Positions 18,434 to 25,393 of a stretch of 31,467 bases of DNA are shown here, piece after piece. A program made the translations under genes and the position numbers. The DNA is from a virus. Location of the stretch: the IMG/VR virus record IMGVR_UViG_3300025127_000140, positions 1 through 31,467 of that record; one strand, given 5' to 3'. How positions within the stretch are numbered: the stretch's first letter is position 1; the number at the start of each line of letters is the position of its first letter. The notes under the pieces were generated by a model. The model worked only from the letters and a program-made list of their open reading frames with translations. It ran no database searches and was not told where the DNA came from.

Positions 18434-19623
18434 TGACATTTCAAATACTTGATGATAGGAGTGAATGCTATGGAATCTATTATAACGGAAATTTTATTTA
18501 CGACAATTTCCCAAGCAACCTTGATCGGACTTGGGAGTGGTCTTCTCATCTTCTTGGTCGGAACATCAATTATGGTTCTATCTTTTGCGGTGGTAGAGAG
18601 ATTGGTAAAGTTGGCCCCGTCCACCTTCAAGATCGGTATGAAATCTATTCTCGCAAGATTCGGAGTTTCTTGAGAGCAACAGCAAATGCCAAAATAAAGT
18701 TCGATGATGTTTGTTTATTCGAGATTGTTCCTCAACAACACCTCCGACACTATTGCGAGGTCAAAAACGATATAACCAATTGGGTATTTGAAAATCATGA
18801 GAAACCACAGAACCATCAGCACATGGTGGACGTAATGGAACTCAGTCACGATATTTCACAAAAAATCCCCGTAATCGACCTAAATCGGCTGTTTAGGTAT
18901 AGCAAGCATGATAGCAAGGCCAAGTATCTTTTTGACCAAGTTAAGGGTCAAAATACGCCCATTCTGTACGATGTATGGGGGTCTGTGACCGGCAGATTAA
19001 CCACGAAACCGGGATCTTTTCCAATCCTAAACTTGAAGAAGGAAATCGCTGATTGCGTAGTTCCAACCAACGATGTTTTCGTTCAACTTGACTTTAATGG
19101 AGCCGAGATCAGAACTTTAATTTCTCTTGCTGGAAAAGAACAACCAGAAGAAGATATCCACGAATGGAACATGAAGAACATCTATCACAACATAACTGAG
19201 AGATCAAAAGCAAAACAACGGTTCTTTGCTTGGTTGTACAATCCGAATTCAAATGATCAAGAGACCGAGAGACACTATACGAGAGAACAGATACTAAATA
19301 AGCATTATAATAATAATATAGTATCAACTCCTTTTGGAAGAAAGATAGGAGCCGATGATTTTCACGCTTTAAATTATCTTCTACAATCCTCTTCATCAGA
19401 TAATTGTTTACAGTCAGCAGTTAAAGTAAATAAAATTTTGAAAAATAAAAAATCATTTGTTCAATCGGTTGTGCATGATTGTGTTACAATCGATATGTCT
19501 TTAACAGAAAGGCATATTCTACCAACGTTAGTTGAAATGTTTAGCGATACTTCTCTAGGCAGATTTAAAACATCGGTACAAATTGGACACAATTTAAAAG
19601 ACTTGGAGGAAGTACAATGGTAG
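18433..19623 (+). CDS. Family A DNA polymerase, polymerase domain only
   Basis: Replicative DNA polymerase of the Pol I family, 396 aa. Motif A is VQLDFNGAEIR (catalytic Asp220, with the usual SQIELR changed to NGAEIR). Motif B is ERSKAKQRFFAWLY (Arg257, Lys261, Phe265 and Tyr269 at the canonical spacing). The STPFGRKIG stretch at 298-306 matches the Pol I LFGRR element. Motif C is VVHDC (Asp349 kept, but Cys350 where Pol I has Glu). TGRLTT at 186-191 is also conserved. The first 150 residues show no 3'-5' exonuclease DxE motif, so proofreading must come from another protein, as reported for phage RM378. It starts at ATG 18433, overlapping the previous stop by one base, and overlaps the next gene by 7 nt. 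Function as a polymerase is well supported; being the main replicase is inference. Confidence 0.88.
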   Translation: MTFQILDDRSECYGIYYNGNFIYDNFPSNLDRTWEWSSHLLGRNINYGSIFCGGREIGKVGPVHLQDRYEIYSRKIRSFLRATANAKIKFDDVCLFEIVPQQHLRHYCEVKNDITNWVFENHEKPQNHQHMVDVMELSHDISQKIPVIDLNRLFRYSKHDSKAKYLFDQVKGQNTPILYDVWGSVTGRLTTKPGSFPILNLKKEIADCVVPTNDVFVQLDFNGAEIRTLISLAGKEQPEEDIHEWNMKNIYHNITERSKAKQRFFAWLYNPNSNDQETERHYTREQILNKHYNNNIVSTPFGRKIGADDFHALNYLLQSSSSDNCLQSAVKVNKILKNKKSFVQSVVHDCVTIDMSLTERHILPTLVEMFSDTSLGRFKTSVQIGHNLKDLEEVQW

Positions 19624-20423
19624 TAATAGGCATAGGAACAGCAGGGTGCAAAGTTGCTAACTCTTTTAGTAAAGGACACAAGAAGATTCTTATCGGCCCT
19701 AATAAATTTCCAAAAACATGCAAGACTGTTGAAGATTATGAGAATAAATGCCCGTCACTGAAAAAAGAATTATCTTTCTCGCAAAAAGAATGTTGGGTGT
19801 TTGTCTGTGGTGCTTCAAAAACTTCTGGTGCTACATTAAGAATCTTGGAGAAAATAAAAGACAAAACACTGAATGTTGTTTATTTTACCCCAGATAATCT
19901 ATTATCAACACCAATACAGATTAAGCAAGATAAGGTTGCATTTAATGTTTTACAACAATTCGCTCGTTCCGGTCTCTTGTCTTCTTTGTATTTGGTTTCA
20001 AATGTTGCACTTGTTTCTCTTGCTGGCGAGGGTCCAATAACCGATGTTTATAGAAATGCGAATGCAACAATTGCAAATATTATTGAAACAATAGAATATT
20101 TTAAAAGCGAGGATCCTGTTCTTGGCACAATAGCCGAGACAAAAAATATATCTAGAATAAAAACATTTTCAGTTGGTGTTCTTTATGAGAGTGAAGAAAA
20201 ATTACTTTTTCCTCTTGACAACATTACTGAAACTGGTTACATGTATAGTATAAACGAAGACGAACTTAATCAGGAGAATGATTTGTTAATGTCGATAAAA
20301 GATAAAGTTGCCGAAGACAATGAGAATAATCTTCTTTCTTCTTTTGCTATCTTTTCTTCTCCACATGAGAGATCATTTTACTACGCGATTAAGTCTACGC
20401 ACTTCATTCAAGAAAAAATATAA
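19617..20423 (+). CDS. Candidate divergent tubulin/FtsZ-like protein
   Basis: A 268-aa protein. It begins with a Rossmann-type glycine loop, VVIGIGTAGCKVANSF (residues 2-17), much like the FtsZ start VIGVGGGGNNAVN. A strand and second Gly/Ser loop follow, WVFVCGASKTSGATLRILEKI (60-80), at the place of the tubulin signature GGGTGTG, then NVVYFTPD like FtsZ VAVVTKPF. Residues 123-160 (SLYLVSNVALVS, then GPITDVYRNANATIANIIETI) follow the order of FtsZ IPNDKLL and the helix before the T7 loop. The T7 catalytic Asp is not evident (AETKNISRIKT), and the tubulin signature is incomplete, so GTP hydrolysis may be lost. Phage tubulins (PhuZ, TubZ) position phage DNA or segregate plasmids. It overlaps the polymerase gene by 7 nt. 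The family call is my pattern reading and needs structure comparison. Confidence 0.5.
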   Translation: MVVIGIGTAGCKVANSFSKGHKKILIGPNKFPKTCKTVEDYENKCPSLKKELSFSQKECWVFVCGASKTSGATLRILEKIKDKTLNVVYFTPDNLLSTPIQIKQDKVAFNVLQQFARSGLLSSLYLVSNVALVSLAGEGPITDVYRNANATIANIIETIEYFKSEDPVLGTIAETKNISRIKTFSVGVLYESEEKLLFPLDNITETGYMYSINEDELNQENDLLMSIKDKVAEDNENNLLSSFAIFSSPHERSFYYAIKSTHFIQEKI

Positions 20424-20508: not shown

Positions 20509-20751
20509 ATGAGTAATTACACTGCATACACCGGAACCTTTGTAAACAAGAATGGCCAAACTCGTACCATGACTTTTATCCGTCAAGGCGATGTTCCAAG
20601 TTCTTTCTTTAACGGAGGTGTTAAGCGTAAACTTTCTGAGGGTATGGAAACCGTTTACGATGTAAATGCGAAAGGTTGGCGTACATTTAATAGCAATACG
20701 CAAATTGGCCAACTTTCACAGAAAACAGTACAATTTTCATTTGACAGTTAA
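20509..20751 (+). CDS. Small SH3-like beta-barrel phage protein
   Basis: An 80-aa protein reading GTFVNKNGQTRTMTFIRQGDVP, then LSEGMETVYDVNAKGWRTFNS, then a short end. The pattern (a GTF-K-NG-RTMTF start followed by EGME-V-DV---WR-FN) matches a widespread family of small phage proteins annotated as SH3 beta-barrel fold (I recall it as DUF2693). Their role is not established. It has its own sigma-70-type promoter and a strong RBS (AGGAG about 6 nt before ATG). The end of its coding sequence contains the -35 element of the next promoter (TTGACA within the FDS codons). Confidence 0.72.
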   Translation: MSNYTAYTGTFVNKNGQTRTMTFIRQGDVPSSFFNGGVKRKLSEGMETVYDVNAKGWRTFNSNTQIGQLSQKTVQFSFDS

Positions 20752-20769
20752 GCATAAATATGCTATAAT
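20741..20769 (+). promoter_or_regulatory. Consensus extended sigma-70 promoter for the gp32-like gene
   Basis: TTGACA (20741-20746), a spacer of exactly 17 nt, and TATAAT (20764-20769) preceded by TG at the extended -10 position. This is a perfect match to the consensus. The predicted start near 20776 places the following GC hairpin at the very 5' end of the mRNA. The -35 box lies inside the end of the preceding gene. Confidence 0.88.
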
Positions 20770-20777
20770 ATAAATAG

Positions 20778-20797
20778 CGGGGGGTCTTTGCCCCCCG
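20778..20797 (+). promoter_or_regulatory. 5'-terminal GC hairpin in the gp32-like mRNA leader
   Basis: CGGGGGG (20778-20784) pairs with CCCCCCG (20791-20797) around a TCTTTG loop. No clear T run follows, so termination is unlikely; it is more likely a structured leader of the SSB mRNA that begins at about 20776. The loop UUUG could pair with CAAA at 20815-20818 to make a pseudoknot, with a small GCC/GGC hairpin between. T4 gp32 represses its own mRNA through a leader pseudoknot, so the analogy is suggestive but stem 2 here is weak. Confidence 0.6.
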
Positions 20798-20844: not shown

Positions 20845-21606
20845 ATGGCGTTAAATTTAGATAAGATGAGAGAGAAGTTAGAAGCTTCCAAGAATGGTGG
20901 AAAAAAACAAGAAAATAACACCAAATGGAGACCACAAGAAGGTGACCAAACAATTCGCATTATGCCCACAGAAGATGGCGATCCGTTCAAGGAATACCAC
21001 TTTCATTATAATGTAGGTAAGAATCCCGGCATTTACTGCCCAAAGAAAAATGATGGTGAAGATTGTCCAATCTGTGAATTTGCTTCATCCTTGTGGCGAG
21101 ATGGTGTTCAAAACAATAATGACACCGCAAAGCGAGAAGCTAAGAAATTGTTTGTTCGCAAACGTTATTATTCTCCTGTCTTAGTCCGAGGTCAAGAATC
21201 CTCTGGAGTAAAAGTTTGGTCTTACGGTAAGACCGCATATGAAACCCTTTTGGGTTATGTATTGGATCCTGACTATGGTGATATTACTCACCCAGAAACA
21301 GGAACTGATATCGTACTAACCTATACGGTCCCGAACACACCGGGTTCGTTCCCAAAGACACAATTGAAACCAAGAAGGCGTCCATCCGTTTTATGTGATG
21401 ATGCTGTGGCTAATTGTGATGATTTGGTCAGTTCTGTCCCTGAGATTGATACTCTCTTCCAACGACATACTACCGCAGAGGTACAAGCCTTGTTGGATGA
21501 TTATCTTTCCTCCGATGCAAATAGTGAGTCGCGATCTTCGGAGACAGCAAAATATAATACTGAAAGCAAGGTAGATGCTGCTTTTCAAAAATTTATGAAC
21601 GGTTAG
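20845..21606 (+). CDS. gp32-like single-stranded DNA-binding protein
   Basis: It coats single-stranded DNA during replication, recombination and repair. At 253 aa (T4 gp32 is 301) it shows the gp32 pattern: a basic, disordered N-terminal segment (KLEASKNGGKKQENN) that in T4 gives cooperativity, an OB fold beginning at DQTIRIMPTEDGDPFKEYHFH, and a zinc site from His54, Cys65, Cys74 and Cys77 (T4 uses His64, Cys77, Cys87, Cys90). An aromatic-basic stretch follows (FVRKRYYSPV). The C-terminal part is Ser/Asp/Glu-rich, less acidic than in T4. A strong promoter and a 5' hairpin lie upstream, an SD GAGGAG precedes the start, and a terminator follows. Confidence 0.9.
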   Translation: MALNLDKMREKLEASKNGGKKQENNTKWRPQEGDQTIRIMPTEDGDPFKEYHFHYNVGKNPGIYCPKKNDGEDCPICEFASSLWRDGVQNNNDTAKREAKKLFVRKRYYSPVLVRGQESSGVKVWSYGKTAYETLLGYVLDPDYGDITHPETGTDIVLTYTVPNTPGSFPKTQLKPRRRPSVLCDDAVANCDDLVSSVPEIDTLFQRHTTAEVQALLDDYLSSDANSESRSSETAKYNTESKVDAAFQKFMNG

Positions 21607-21621
21607 ATACGGGCCGCTATG

Positions 21622-21660
21622 GGGGCGCAGCGGGTAATAAATTGCGCCCCACCTTTTTTT
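21622..21660 (+). terminator. Rho-independent terminator after the SSB gene
   Basis: An 8-bp GC stem, GGGGCGCA (21622-21629) with TGCGCCCC (21643-21650), encloses a 13-nt loop. A run of seven T (21654-21660) follows after ACC. The T run directly abuts the Shine-Dalgarno sequence of the tiny lipoprotein gene, so that gene depends on read-through or an unseen promoter. Confidence 0.88.
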
Positions 21661-21670
21661 AGGAGGAGAC

Positions 21671-21772
21671 ATGAAGTATTTCATGATGGCTGCACTATTC
21701 ATCGCATGTGGTGACAAAGACACAGGTGAAGAAGTAGCAGAAGAGCAAGATTCAGCAGTAGAAGCTGAATAA
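21671..21772 (+). CDS. Tiny predicted lipoprotein (33 aa)
   Basis: An ATG at 21671 with a perfect AGGAGG a few bases upstream opens a 33-codon gene. The product has a short signal (MKYFMMAALFIAC) with a lipobox-like end FIAC (Cys13), then GDKDTGEEVAEEQDSAVEAE, a very acidic mature part of 20 residues. The residue after the Cys is Gly, not Asp, which by the Lol rule favours the outer membrane. The signal has only one positive charge and Phe at -3, so processing is plausible but not certain. Phage lipoproteins can block further infection at the cell surface (T5 Llp is the known case); that role here is inference. It follows the SSB terminator and precedes the repeat-flanked DUF262 gene. Confidence 0.72.
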   Translation: MKYFMMAALFIACGDKDTGEEVAEEQDSAVEAE

Positions 21773-21783
21773 AATAAAAAAAT

Positions 21784-21818
21784 ACCACAGGGAGGCATGG
21801 GTTTATAGATGCCTCATT
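21784..21818 (+). repeat. 35-bp hairpin repeat, copy 1 (upstream of the DUF262 gene)
   Basis: This is 34/35 identical to 23136-23170; the only change is T21806 for C23158 in the loop. The core is a 7-bp stem, GAGGCAT (21792-21798) with ATGCCTC (21809-21815), and a 10-nt loop GGGTTTATAG. No T run follows. Confidence 0.95.
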
Positions 21819-21872
21819 ATTCATAGTTTTAAAATATAAAAACTATGAATCGGAACGAGGACCGTTATCCTC
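21819..21872 (+). promoter_or_regulatory. Two stacked hairpins in the leader of the DUF262 gene
   Basis: A perfect 12-bp inverted repeat, ATTCATAGTTTT (21819-21830) with AAAACTATGAAT (21839-21850), has an 8-nt AT loop. Six bases later a second stem GAGGA/TCCTC (21857-21861, 21868-21872) has a 6-nt loop. Together with the 35-bp repeat hairpin just upstream they make a three-stem leader ending 19 nt before ATG 21891. It could be an operator for a dimeric repressor (DNA level) or a structured mRNA leader; the sequence does not decide. Confidence 0.65.
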
Positions 21873-21890
21873 ACATAAAGAGAAAAAACA

Positions 21891-23129
21891 ATGAACATAA
21901 AAACATATAATATTGCAGAATTTGTTGAAAATTTTGCTATCAAAGAAATCAGCCGCGAAGCTTACGAAGAGGTCACCACGTTAAGCTTGTCCGAATATCA
22001 GAAAACGCAAAAACAATATGCGGATCCAAAATATCAGAGAATATTTGGTGCTTGGGATCACAAACAAAAGTGTGCTTACATTGAAAGTCTTTTTCACAAG
22101 GAGGCATATAATCCAATTGTTCTGGCGGAAATTCTTACTAAAGATGACACATTACCAAGGTCTATAAAATTTGCTTGTCTAGATGGGCAACATAGATCAA
22201 CAGTTATTTGTGAATTTATCGATAATAAGTTTGGCTTTACAGGTTCGCTTAATATTGATGGAGAAATAAGAGAGTTTACAAATACACTTTTTAAAGACTT
22301 AAATAAAAGAATTAGAAAAGTTTTCTTAGAAAGATCTAAGGTTTGCGTCTTGATTGTTGAGAACAAATCTGAAAACAATTTAAGAAATATTTTCTTACAA
22401 ATTAACTCAGGTGAGCCGCTAAATCGTCAAGAAAAAAGGAATGCTTTGGATACATACATAGCCGAGTGGTCGAGAAGACAAACAGAAAAACATGGTGATA
22501 TTTTTAAACAAATATCTAAGATTGGTTCGCAAATCCATAGAATGTCTGATCGCCAGTATACATCCAAAGTGGCTTTATTTTTGTCTGAATATGATAAAAA
22601 TAAAATTATAGAGACCAAAGACAATGAACTTGACGCCTACTATAATTCAAAAGAATATAATTACTCAATGTTGGAATATATCTCTAATCATTTATTTAGT
22701 AGTTTGAGTAGCATTGCTCTTTCTCACAAAAGAAAGAATAACTCAAGAATGCAAATGACACATCTTTGGTGCTATACGCTGCTTCATTATAAATTATTTT
22801 ATGCTTCAAGTGATAGTTTTGCAAGGTGTGAAAAAATTCCTGATTCATCGACAATTTATAACTTTTGCTGCGAATTAGTTGAAAGATTATCATCTGAATC
22901 AGAAGATAGGTTTTCTCATGAAAAAATTAGATGGCAATCTGGTGAAATTAGTGAAGAACAATTTAAAGCTGAACTATTCTTTCATCTTGAAAAGAATAGA
23001 ACCCATACTTCTACCTCAATGAAAGTATATGAAAAACATATTGTTGAAACTTTTAACAACGATATAGACACTCTTGTTGAGCAGATAATGGACTATGATC
23101 AGGGCTCATCGGATCAGATAGCAGCTTAA
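21891..23129 (+). CDS. DUF262-like protein with DGQHR motif
   Basis: This 412-aa protein has the marks of the DUF262 / ParB-like superfamily, the N-terminal domain type of GmrSD restriction enzymes: DPKYQRIFGAWDHKQKCAYIESL (45-67), NPIVLAEI, the signature CLDGQHRSTVICEFIDNKF (Asp98-Arg102), VCVLIVENKSENNLRNIFLQIN, and NSGEPLNRQEKRNAL (172-186). DUF262 domains in GmrS hydrolyse nucleotides to control cleavage of modified DNA. No HNH nuclease domain (DUF1524) is visible in the remaining 220 residues, which are helical with several aromatic and Cys residues, so this is a stand-alone DUF262 protein. Two 35-bp repeats flank it and interrupt the SSB-UvsX neighbourhood, which suggests a cassette. 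Role unknown: exclusion of other phages, counter-defence or homing are possible. The RBS is weak (AAAGAG). Confidence 0.75.
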   Translation: MNIKTYNIAEFVENFAIKEISREAYEEVTTLSLSEYQKTQKQYADPKYQRIFGAWDHKQKCAYIESLFHKEAYNPIVLAEILTKDDTLPRSIKFACLDGQHRSTVICEFIDNKFGFTGSLNIDGEIREFTNTLFKDLNKRIRKVFLERSKVCVLIVENKSENNLRNIFLQINSGEPLNRQEKRNALDTYIAEWSRRQTEKHGDIFKQISKIGSQIHRMSDRQYTSKVALFLSEYDKNKIIETKDNELDAYYNSKEYNYSMLEYISNHLFSSLSSIALSHKRKNNSRMQMTHLWCYTLLHYKLFYASSDSFARCEKIPDSSTIYNFCCELVERLSSESEDRFSHEKIRWQSGEISEEQFKAELFFHLEKNRTHTSTSMKVYEKHIVETFNNDIDTLVEQIMDYDQGSSDQIAA

Positions 23130-23135
23130 ACAAAC

Positions 23136-23170
23136 ACCACAGGGAGGCATGGGTTTACAGATGCCTCATT
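23136..23170 (+). repeat. 35-bp hairpin repeat, copy 2 (between DUF262 gene and UvsX)
   Basis: The same stem GAGGCAT (23144-23150) / ATGCCTC (23161-23167) with loop GGGTTTACAG, same orientation as copy 1. It starts 6 nt after the DUF262 stop codon and ends just before the UvsX RBS, so it forms the entire intergenic spacer. Confidence 0.95.
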
Positions 23171-23189
23171 CTATTTAACGGAGTAATAA

Positions 23190-24284
23190 TTGGGAAAGGT
23201 AATACAAATGAAAACTAAACCGGGTAAAGTTAATATTGGCGACTTTAAAAAAGCCCTCAACAAAAAACTAGGGATTGAAGTTGCTTACGACTTAAACCAT
23301 GAAAATCCTGCATCAATTAAGGATTGGATCTCAACTGGGTCAACTATTCTTGATTGGCTAATATATCCCGGTAAACGAGCCGGTATTCCTGTTGGCAGAA
23401 TCACAGAGTTAGCAGGGCTTTCAGCCGCAGGCAAGTCATTTATGGCTGCTGTTATTGCCGCAAATGCTAACAAGAAAGGTATGAAGGTTGTATACTTTGA
23501 TTCAGAAGCAGCAGTTGATGCTGAGTTCTTAGAGAAAGCAGGTTGCGATAAGAATGAGATTCTTTATGTTCAAGCAACATCGGTTGAAATGGTTCTCACT
23601 TCTATTGAGTACCTAATGGAACAGTGGCCAGACGAACAGCTATTGTTTATTTGGGATTCTATTGCTGCTACACCAGCAGAGAAAGATGTAGAGGGGGATT
23701 TCAATCCGCAATCAAGCATGGCTCAAAAGCCAAGAATCTTTTCAAAAGCATTTGCTAAATTGCAAGTTCCCTTGGAAAGAACACAATCAACACTTTTGCT
23801 TATTAATCAGTTGAAAACTAATATTACAACTAATGTAGCAGAAGCGATGACCACGCCTTACTTTGCCCCCGGTGGTAAAGCGATTGAGTTTCATTGCGCT
23901 CTTCGTATTTGGCTTACCCGTCGTAAAGCAAAAGCCGGTAAGGTACTTGACGAGAACGGAACGCAAGTTGGTTCCGAGGTTAAAGCTAAGATCCAGAAGG
24001 TCCGTTCAGCCGGATATGGTAGAGAATGTACTTTTGATGTTCTTTGGGGCGGTAAAGATGTTAGGATCGCAGATGAAGAATCATGGCTCCATGCCTTGGC
24101 CAAAGTCAATAGTGATCGCTATAAAGCCTCTGGTGCTTGGAAAACTATTATTGATAGCAAGGGAAAAGAATATAAATTTCAATCAAAAGATTGGCTTGAG
24201 AAACTAAAAGATGAAAAGTTTAAAGCTGCTGTAATGGAAGTCTTAGAGGAAGAATTTGTAAACAAGTATAAAAAAGAATCGTAA
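23190..24284 (+). CDS. uvsX: UvsX/RecA-type recombinase
   Basis: This strand-exchange protein drives recombination and recombination-dependent replication. At 364 aa it is close to T4 UvsX (391). It shows the RecA core: ISTGSTILDWLI, Walker A GLSAAGKS (76-83), the VYFDSEAAVD strand, Walker B LLFIWDSIAA (Asp156), the L1/L2 region EKDVEGDFNPQSSMAQKP, LLLINQLKTNI, and FAPGGKAIEFHCALRIWLTRR. The start is either TTG 23190 with GGAG 6 nt before it, or ATG 23208 with AAAGG 8 nt before it; the TTG gives the longer product used here. It sits downstream of the second 35-bp repeat. A terminator and the promoter of the PurA-like gene follow. Confidence 0.92.
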   Translation: MGKVIQMKTKPGKVNIGDFKKALNKKLGIEVAYDLNHENPASIKDWISTGSTILDWLIYPGKRAGIPVGRITELAGLSAAGKSFMAAVIAANANKKGMKVVYFDSEAAVDAEFLEKAGCDKNEILYVQATSVEMVLTSIEYLMEQWPDEQLLFIWDSIAATPAEKDVEGDFNPQSSMAQKPRIFSKAFAKLQVPLERTQSTLLLINQLKTNITTNVAEAMTTPYFAPGGKAIEFHCALRIWLTRRKAKAGKVLDENGTQVGSEVKAKIQKVRSAGYGRECTFDVLWGGKDVRIADEESWLHALAKVNSDRYKASGAWKTIIDSKGKEYKFQSKDWLEKLKDEKFKAAVMEVLEEEFVNKYKKES

Positions 24285-24313: not shown

Positions 24314-24337
24314 CCCCGATTAATTTCGGGGTTTTTT
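24314..24337 (+). terminator. Rho-independent terminator after uvsX
   Basis: CCCCGA (24314-24319) pairs with TCGGGG (24326-24331) around a TTAATT loop, followed by six T (24332-24337). It overlaps closely with the next promoter, whose -35 box begins 3 nt later. Confidence 0.88.
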
Positions 24338-24388: not shown

Positions 24389-25393
24389 ATGAAAGAAATA
24401 CAATATGTAGACATTGTTGCCGATCTCTCTTGGGGAGACACAGGCAAAGGAAAAATAACATCACATCTTGCGAAAGACAAATCATATGATTATGTTTGTC
24501 GCTGGGCTGGTGGTAACAATGCTGGTCATACAGTTTTTTTAAAAGGAAAGAAATTTAAAACACATCTTATTCCATCTGGTGTTTTTCATGGAATTAAATC
24601 AATTATCGGACCTCAATGTGTAGTGCATCCAGAGTCCTTACAAGAAGAGTTAGATTATCTCAAAGAGAACGGATTTGATACTTCTTTGGTTAAGGTTTCT
24701 CCGAGAGCACATATTGTAACAAAAAAACATATATCAGCAGATAAAAGAAAACTAGCCAAGAAACTTGGAACAACTTCCAAAGGCATTGCTCCATGTTACT
24801 CAGACAAGATGGCTAGAACCGGACAATTAGCAAAAGATGTTCTCCCAGAGGAATTGATATGGGATGAACAATTAAGTGGAAGAATTCTCTGCGAGGGGGC
24901 CCAAGGTTATTATTTAGATATAGACCATGGTAATTATCCTTATGTCACCTCATCAATTACACTACCCTATGGTGCTTGTTCCCTTGGGTTTCCTCCGCAG
25001 AAAATTCGTCGTATATGGGGCATAGCCAAGCTATATGATACCCGCTCTGGTGTGGATCCACTATTCCCCGATAAGCTACTAAAAGACAAAGAATTGGCCA
25101 AATTGGGCGATCTAGGGGGTGAAGTTGGAGTAACAACCGGACGAAAAAGAAAGTGTAATTGGCTCAATGTCGATATGATGATTGATGCCGCGAGAAAAAC
25201 AGGAACAACTCATCTTGTGATCAATAAATGTGATATTGTTAGGGGATTAGGTATTTTTAAGTGTTATAGCGGAGGGGAGTTAAAAGAATTTTCTTCCTAT
25301 CATAAGATGACCGAGTTTATTACTGACAAAGTTGGGCAATCTAACTCATTGGCAAAACATATTTACCTTTCAAACTCCCCGGAGAGATTATGA
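24389..25393 (+). CDS. Adenylosuccinate synthetase family enzyme (PurA/PurZ-like, short form)
   Basis: PurA joins IMP and aspartate using GTP on the way to AMP. The phage PurZ branch acts on dGMP to make the precursor of 2-aminoadenine. This 334-aa protein has the P-loop-like LSWGDTGKGK (Asp17 at the catalytic Asp13 of E. coli PurA), GGNNAGHTV with His47 (E. coli His41), GTTSKGIAPCYSDKMAR, EGAQGYYLDIDHGNYPYVTSS, and VTTGRKRKCNWLN. It lacks about 100 residues of bacterial PurA (432 aa) and is the size of archaeal PurA and of PurZ. The catalytic Asp, which I recall as substituted in PurZ, is kept, so plain adenylosuccinate synthesis is possible. It has its own promoter and overlaps the nuclease gene by 4 nt (ATGA). 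No DatZ or MazZ is seen in this window. Confidence 0.82.
   Translation: MKEIQYVDIVADLSWGDTGKGKITSHLAKDKSYDYVCRWAGGNNAGHTVFLKGKKFKTHLIPSGVFHGIKSIIGPQCVVHPESLQEELDYLKENGFDTSLVKVSPRAHIVTKKHISADKRKLAKKLGTTSKGIAPCYSDKMARTGQLAKDVLPEELIWDEQLSGRILCEGAQGYYLDIDHGNYPYVTSSITLPYGACSLGFPPQKIRRIWGIAKLYDTRSGVDPLFPDKLLKDKELAKLGDLGGEVGVTTGRKRKCNWLNVDMMIDAARKTGTTHLVINKCDIVRGLGIFKCYSGGELKEFSSYHKMTEFITDKVGQSNSLAKHIYLSNSPERL

Follow-up and report, generated by a model that had tools for sequence, protein, structure and literature searches.

The DNA analyzed here (the window) is the whole 31,467-nucleotide IMG/VR virus record IMGVR_UViG_3300025127_000140, a fragment of a phage genome in which a DUF262 gene and two copies of a short repeat, E1 and E2, lie between the genes for a gp32-like single-stranded DNA-binding protein (SSB) and the recombinase UvsX. 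ORFs were called mechanically, and the region contained the following features.

20741-20769, plus strand: consensus sigma-70-type promoter TTGACA-17-TATAAT before gp32 (pattern scan)
20845-21606, plus strand: gp32-like SSB, 253 aa (PF08804, 2.6e-14)
21614-21660, plus strand: PK0, a pseudoknot of different sequence directly 3′ of the gp32 stop (read from the sequence); S1 pairs CCGCT (21614-21618) with AGCGG (21629-21633), S2 pairs GGGGCGC (21622-21628) with GCGCCCC (21644-21650), and a U7 tract lies at 21654-21660
21672-21773, plus strand: lipoprotein-like small ORF, 33 aa, between PK0 and E1, with a homologue in loci L036 and L055
21784-21815, plus strand: E1, H-type pseudoknot between the lipoprotein-like ORF and DUF262 (covariance model 54.8 bits, E 1e-13); S1 pairs 21784-21786 (ACC) with 21800-21802 (GGT), S2 pairs 21792-21798 with 21809-21815
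21891-23129, plus strand: cargo gene DUF262/GmrSD_N, stand-alone, 412 aa, DGQHR motif retained (Pfam GmrSD_N)
23136-23167, plus strand: E2, H-type pseudoknot before uvsX (covariance model 56.2 bits, E 4e-14); S1 pairs 23136-23138 with 23152-23154, S2 pairs 23144-23150 with 23161-23167
23190-24284, plus strand: uvsX (RecA-like recombinase), start TTG or an internal ATG (PF00154, 3e-33)
24314-24337, plus strand: terminator-like hairpin CCCCGATTAATTTCGGGG followed by T6, 3′ of uvsX (read from the sequence; the scan listed its minus-strand form only)

The Pfam matches GmrSD_N, PF08804 and PF00154 agreed with the DUF262, SSB and UvsX identities given in the original prediction. Upstream of gp32, positions 19617-20423 encoded a conserved 268-aa protein with a GIGTAGCK-like start, whose family occurred in more than 100 loci and had no Pfam, PHROG or NCBIfam match. 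Positions 24389-25393 encoded a phage adenylosuccinate synthetase (best PHROG "2-aminooxy adenylosuccinate synthetase"); its match to PurZ of NCBIfam fell below the cut-off, which makes a modified-base genome no more than a possibility.

E1 and E2 lay within direct repeats of 44 nt (21775-21818 and 23127-23170), 93% identical and 1352 nt apart from start to start, at the place around DUF262 that had been described from the sequence. Their core, GAGGCATGGGTTTAYAGATGCCTC at 21792-21815 and 23144-23167, differed by one base between the two copies. E1 started 10 nt past the stop codon of the lipoprotein-like ORF and ended 75 nt upstream of the DUF262 ATG, and E2 started 6 nt past the DUF262 stop. 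A search of the same genome for more copies had been proposed; pattern and covariance model searches of the 31,467-bp record found no third one, with a chance expectation of 0.00. The DUF262 leader (21819-21873) contained two more hairpins, ATTCATAGTTTT/AAAACTATGAAT and GAGGA/TCCTC, and this stretch had a z-score of −5.1.

The GAGGCAT stem of the original prediction proved correct, but the description of GGGUUUAYAG as a plain loop was too simple, because its GGU pairs with a conserved ACC upstream of the stem. The repeats are H-type pseudoknots rather than simple hairpins, the 5′ NCC pairing with GGN′ in the hairpin loop. The consensus element of about 32 nt was 5′-NCC-RCAGG-(7-bp S2)-G-GGN′-UUAYAG-(S2′)-3′; the RNA after it was R-N-U-rich and almost devoid of G. 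In a scan that left the stem free, the 7-nt arms paired at 6-7 positions in 167 of 173 copies among the matches listed, with more than 12 different stem sequences. Across 58 distinct sequences, 98.8% of the cells of both stems were paired, and the covariation score was 0.368 compared with 0.181 ± 0.011 for shuffled alignments, none of 500 shuffles scoring as high. S1 column 1-19 paired in 56 of the 58 as AU, CG, GC, GU or UG, the S1 covariation resting on this one variable pair while the other two C-G pairs were invariant and uninformative either way. Likewise, a less strict scan within the fetched loci found that the first base of NCC and the fourth base of the loop covary (ACC/GGU, CCC/GGG and GCC/GGC, plus wobbles). 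Wobbles on the coding strand numbered 35 G.U versus 2 A.C, indicating that the fold is that of the coding strand, either as RNA or, in principle, as single-stranded DNA; this bias alone does not separate the two. The pseudoknot is most likely made of RNA.

The sequence of the element was also strongly constrained. Thirteen of its 32 columns, in L1, the loop and the core of S2, were invariant. The AYAG end was mostly retained where L3 contained a long insert, and the element stayed nearly constant though gp32 identity was 36-75% for most locus pairs. On the 3′ side of the stem, an A occupied +1 in 86% of copies, followed by a T-rich stretch at +3 to +6. The RNWUU motif started at +1 in 98 of 193 copies versus 12 expected after shuffling, an enrichment that would also be expected from the U-tract alone; E1 and E2 of the window had no exact RNWUU at +1. 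This U-tract, which started two bases past the stem, had a mean of 4.2 T in 8 nt and at least 5 T in 39% of copies, and would be weak for an intrinsic terminator.

About 230 copies of the element were found in IMG/VR loci. The exact core occurred in 64 loci, and a scan with fixed ACCRCAGG and GGGTTTAYAG and a free stem detected the element in at least 120. A chance repeat was ruled out by the expectation of 0.00 and by the reversed-sequence control, which gave 0 copies versus 229. The contigs were mostly fragments from uncultured phages, and most loci had been fetched via the element itself, which makes the frequencies conditional on the fetching. Cultured phages yielded no copy, only matches of at most 22 nt at E of about 4 that were judged chance; in the nearest cultured gp32-uvsX pairs, Mel-JY01 and immuto, the two genes lay 8 and 2 nt apart and the element was absent. 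GTDB bacterial genomes gave one 20-nt match without ACCRCAGG, which is within chance for a 20-mer. A known Rfam family was dropped as a candidate, since Rfam 15 had no match at the gathering threshold and nothing related at E≤5 over 21600-23250, and a literature search found no described motif matching the element. Judged from these searches, the element appears to be a conserved, previously uncatalogued RNA family of uncultured marine phages, "marine" being taken from the nearest relatives, which are of marine lineage, and from the T4-like tail and replication genes of the window rather than from sample metadata.

Nearly all copies sat between gp32 and uvsX, and the gene order was almost always gp32-[element]-(cargo-[element])n-uvsX. 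Five loci (L006, L081, L085, L122 and L124) had the element with gp32 and uvsX absent from the visible flank. In 33 larger records of up to 191 kb, the copies were confined to one neighbourhood, G010 with a second site being the sole exception. The element lay directly behind the upstream stop codon, at a median distance of 8 nt (n=185; mostly 5-14 nt), between genes of one operon, as in a malEF-type arrangement. Gaps with the element had a median of 69 nt and were at least 58 nt long, and 103 of 142 element-free gaps were shorter than 25 nt. In most loci, a G-poor AU tract and then a ribosome-binding site (RBS) followed on the 3′ side, but not where the element was followed directly by a tRNA gene (L033, L129 and L168) or by a promoter (L023, L026, L105 and L124 by pattern, L111 by eye). 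Copies before tRNAs or promoters have no RBS to control, which favours a role at the 3′ end of the gene before the element; about 70% of copies, however, were also 19-44 nt upstream of a start codon, so that a 5′ role is possible as well. The gp32 leaders carried another hairpin, and L105 alone had the element on the upstream side of gp32, ahead of the gp32 promoter. This leader hairpin, found at 20778-20797 of the window and in about 80 loci, had a conserved loop GARAUUUG (a variant in the window), was followed by ACUWUARCC ahead of the RBS and is possibly the gp32 autoregulatory site.

A set of 80 loci was fetched by gp32 rather than by the element and was biased to the gp32 clade of the window. 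In this set, uvsX was visible in 73 intervals, and 24 of these had the element, a tally that includes the window. Element-free gp32 genes usually had, in the position of the element, a pseudoknot unrelated to it in sequence, many with a U-tract, and in many PK0-type forms the U runs were longer than that of the element. With S2 fixed, S1 was significant in 26 of 35 element-free gp32 3′ flanks versus 2 of 39 uvsX 3′ flanks, indicating that the pseudoknot behind gp32 is conserved as a structure. The window carried both kinds, PK0 and E1/E2, and homologous PK0 variants occurred in L036 and L055. The element is thus one sequence class of gp32-trailing pseudoknot, one that also follows cargo.

Among 126 complete intervals, 19 were empty (gp32-element-uvsX), and 22 protein families were found singly framed by the element. 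At the slot of the window, relatives with about 85-90% DNA identity showed three states: the window has DUF262, L036 has nothing, and L055 has, between the second and the third of its elements, a 544-aa GHKL ATPase. In L036, the one element at this slot was flanked on the left as E1 is and on the right as E2 is. L036 and L055 also had an FKBP gene after gp32, which the window lacks. The original prediction had seen a cassette in this layout and had proposed a look for relatives with one repeat and no DUF262, and for other genes framed by the repeat; L036 is such a relative, and the singly framed families are such genes. The exchangeable slot was hence borne out, but the repeats could not be upheld as the ends of an insertion or homing element, because a covarying pseudoknot stood at gp32-uvsX junctions whatever the gene, empty intervals included. 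The prediction had set a shared RNA element at many unrelated intergenic positions against its cassette boundary, and this largely turned out to be so: the element was found beside unrelated genes, but in one operon and not scattered genome-wide. A mobile-element boundary or homing system was rejected because no recombinase was found in the proteins scanned, the element was kept in empty intervals and the coding-strand fold covaried. The domain searches, which took in the window proteins and representative cargo rather than whole phage genomes, found no integrase, homing-endonuclease or transposase domain.

DUF262 is thus probably one passenger among many that can be exchanged between marks of RNA punctuation. 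The protein matched Pfam GmrSD_N at 4.3e-13, above the curated cut-off, with no match to the GmrSD C-terminal nuclease domain in Pfam and none to the PDB by sequence. It resembled PADLOC NsnA (9e-21), and the GHKL ATPase of L055 resembled MzaB (2e-18); no paper was traced for either PADLOC name. These likenesses would fit, but do not prove, an anti-phage or counter-defence role of DUF262. Recurrent large cargo proteins between gp32 and uvsX in L007, L024, L092 and L130 had no Pfam family, and DGQH-, DGDHR- or DGGGR-like motifs were seen by eye in some large cargo proteins.

From its place and structure, we infer that the element acts as a boundary for expression within the operon of gp32, cargo and uvsX. 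For the full proposal, one cis-acting RNA pseudoknot that is part of the 3′ end of the preceding gene and acts as this boundary, we see about an even chance. Standing after each stop codon, the pseudoknot would be an obstacle to 3′-to-5′ decay of an mRNA cut in the U-rich tract, or would attenuate transcription, or both, and SSB mRNA would thereby accumulate over that of uvsX and cargo. When a ribosome occupies the stop codon, it would presumably cover S1, and the fold could thus sense the end of translation. However, the near-constant loop and L1 sequence exceeds the needs of a simple decay barrier, which suggests a specific partner. The element might be bound by some other protein, encoded by the phage or the host, or be a small aptamer; either way, it would control antitermination or RNA processing, and its operon position would point to a dedicated regulator. 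We hold this to be improbable: the invariant columns persist while gp32 diverges to 36% identity, but no co-conserved candidate regulator was found, and the sequence-unrelated pseudoknots of relatives apparently substitute for the element. The same substitution counts against an exchange site at the DNA level, at which the element would fold in single-stranded DNA, like an integron attC, for site-specific recombination of cassettes, with the RNA fold secondary. The element-gene-element arrays with framed cargo families and empty sites, the position after stop codons as in attC and the exact exchange among L036, L055 and the window all speak for such a site, but the scanned proteins contained no recombinase or integrase domain, the element had a single orientation relative to the genes and it was retained in empty intervals. 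It is the least probable of the explanations considered here.

The main rival is a translational operator bound by gp32. The T4 operator consists of a pseudoknot of about 28 nt and an unstructured tract with the RBS (PMC535899). In the way that T4 gp32 acts on its own mRNA, gp32 in excess over single-stranded DNA would nucleate on the pseudoknot and spread over the AU-rich tract and the RBS of whichever gene follows (uvsX or cargo). The topology is that of the T4 gene 32 operator (UGCC-A-GCUAUGA-GGUA-AAGUG-UCAUAGC in the T4 record, with S1 CC/GG and a 7-bp S2), the G-poor tract and RBS follow in most loci, and structure without sequence is conserved behind gp32. Nevertheless, the element is not upstream of gp32 itself, where the leaders have a different hairpin, copies with immediate tRNAs or promoters offer no RBS to repress, and the element keeps a tighter spacing to the stop codon before it than to the start codon after it. 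We regard an operator as unlikely, at roughly one chance in four, and retain the expression boundary as the preferred reading.

Besides this boundary function, the nearly identical copies may also supply homology for UvsX-type recombination, by which cargo such as DUF262 could be lost or swapped exactly between two of them. More tentatively, and with the odds against it, the whole might be an exchangeable-gene operon in which invariant pseudoknots set the SSB-to-recombinase stoichiometry at the RNA level and also give the homology for swaps of defence-like cargo. If true, this would be RNA punctuation doubling as a cassette exchange point. The element itself defines a widespread RNA family in uncultured marine phages without an Rfam 15 match, connects the pseudoknot of T4 gp32, a classic case, with a broader group of phages that have a pseudoknot behind the gene, and marks a hotspot of defence-like genes (DUF262/NsnA-like, MzaB-like and other DGQHR-motif proteins) that could be mined by a 32-nt RNA search.

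Compared with known systems, the element shares with the T4/RB69 gene 32 operator (PMC535899, PMC3014915) an H-type pseudoknot linked to gp32, the 7-bp S2, the S1 CC/GG pairing and, on the 3′ side, AU-rich RNA that is presumably single-stranded. It differs in lying behind gp32 and cargo, whereas that of T4 lies in the gp32 leader, in having an L1 of 5 nt instead of 1, and in its nearly invariant L1 and L3 and several copies. The closest described motif in kind is STAXI (PMC2864571), which likewise consists of pseudoknots that recur close to the genes for SSB and other DNA-handling proteins; STAXI, however, is tandem, with 2-3 copies side by side and UUCG loops, and the present element has no Rfam match. 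The malE-malF intercistronic structure is a proposed decay barrier, and RNWUU is the RNase E motif (PMC5927463). Similarly to such 3′ protective structures, the element is a structured RNA between the gene for an abundant product and less-needed operon genes, but it is a phage pseudoknot of invariant sequence that also stands behind exchangeable cargo, and its role as a decay barrier is proposed. Integron attC cassettes resemble the arrays in joining a gene to a structured repeat behind its stop, exchangeable and in variable arrays, whereas here no integrase was found in the scanned window and cargo proteins, the locus is single and fixed, and the element is kept without cargo. Finally, DUF262 belongs with GmrSD/DUF262 proteins and PADLOC NsnA to one family with the DGQHR motif, but unlike GmrSD, it is a stand-alone protein of 412 aa with no C-terminal nuclease match, encoded within a phage replication operon.
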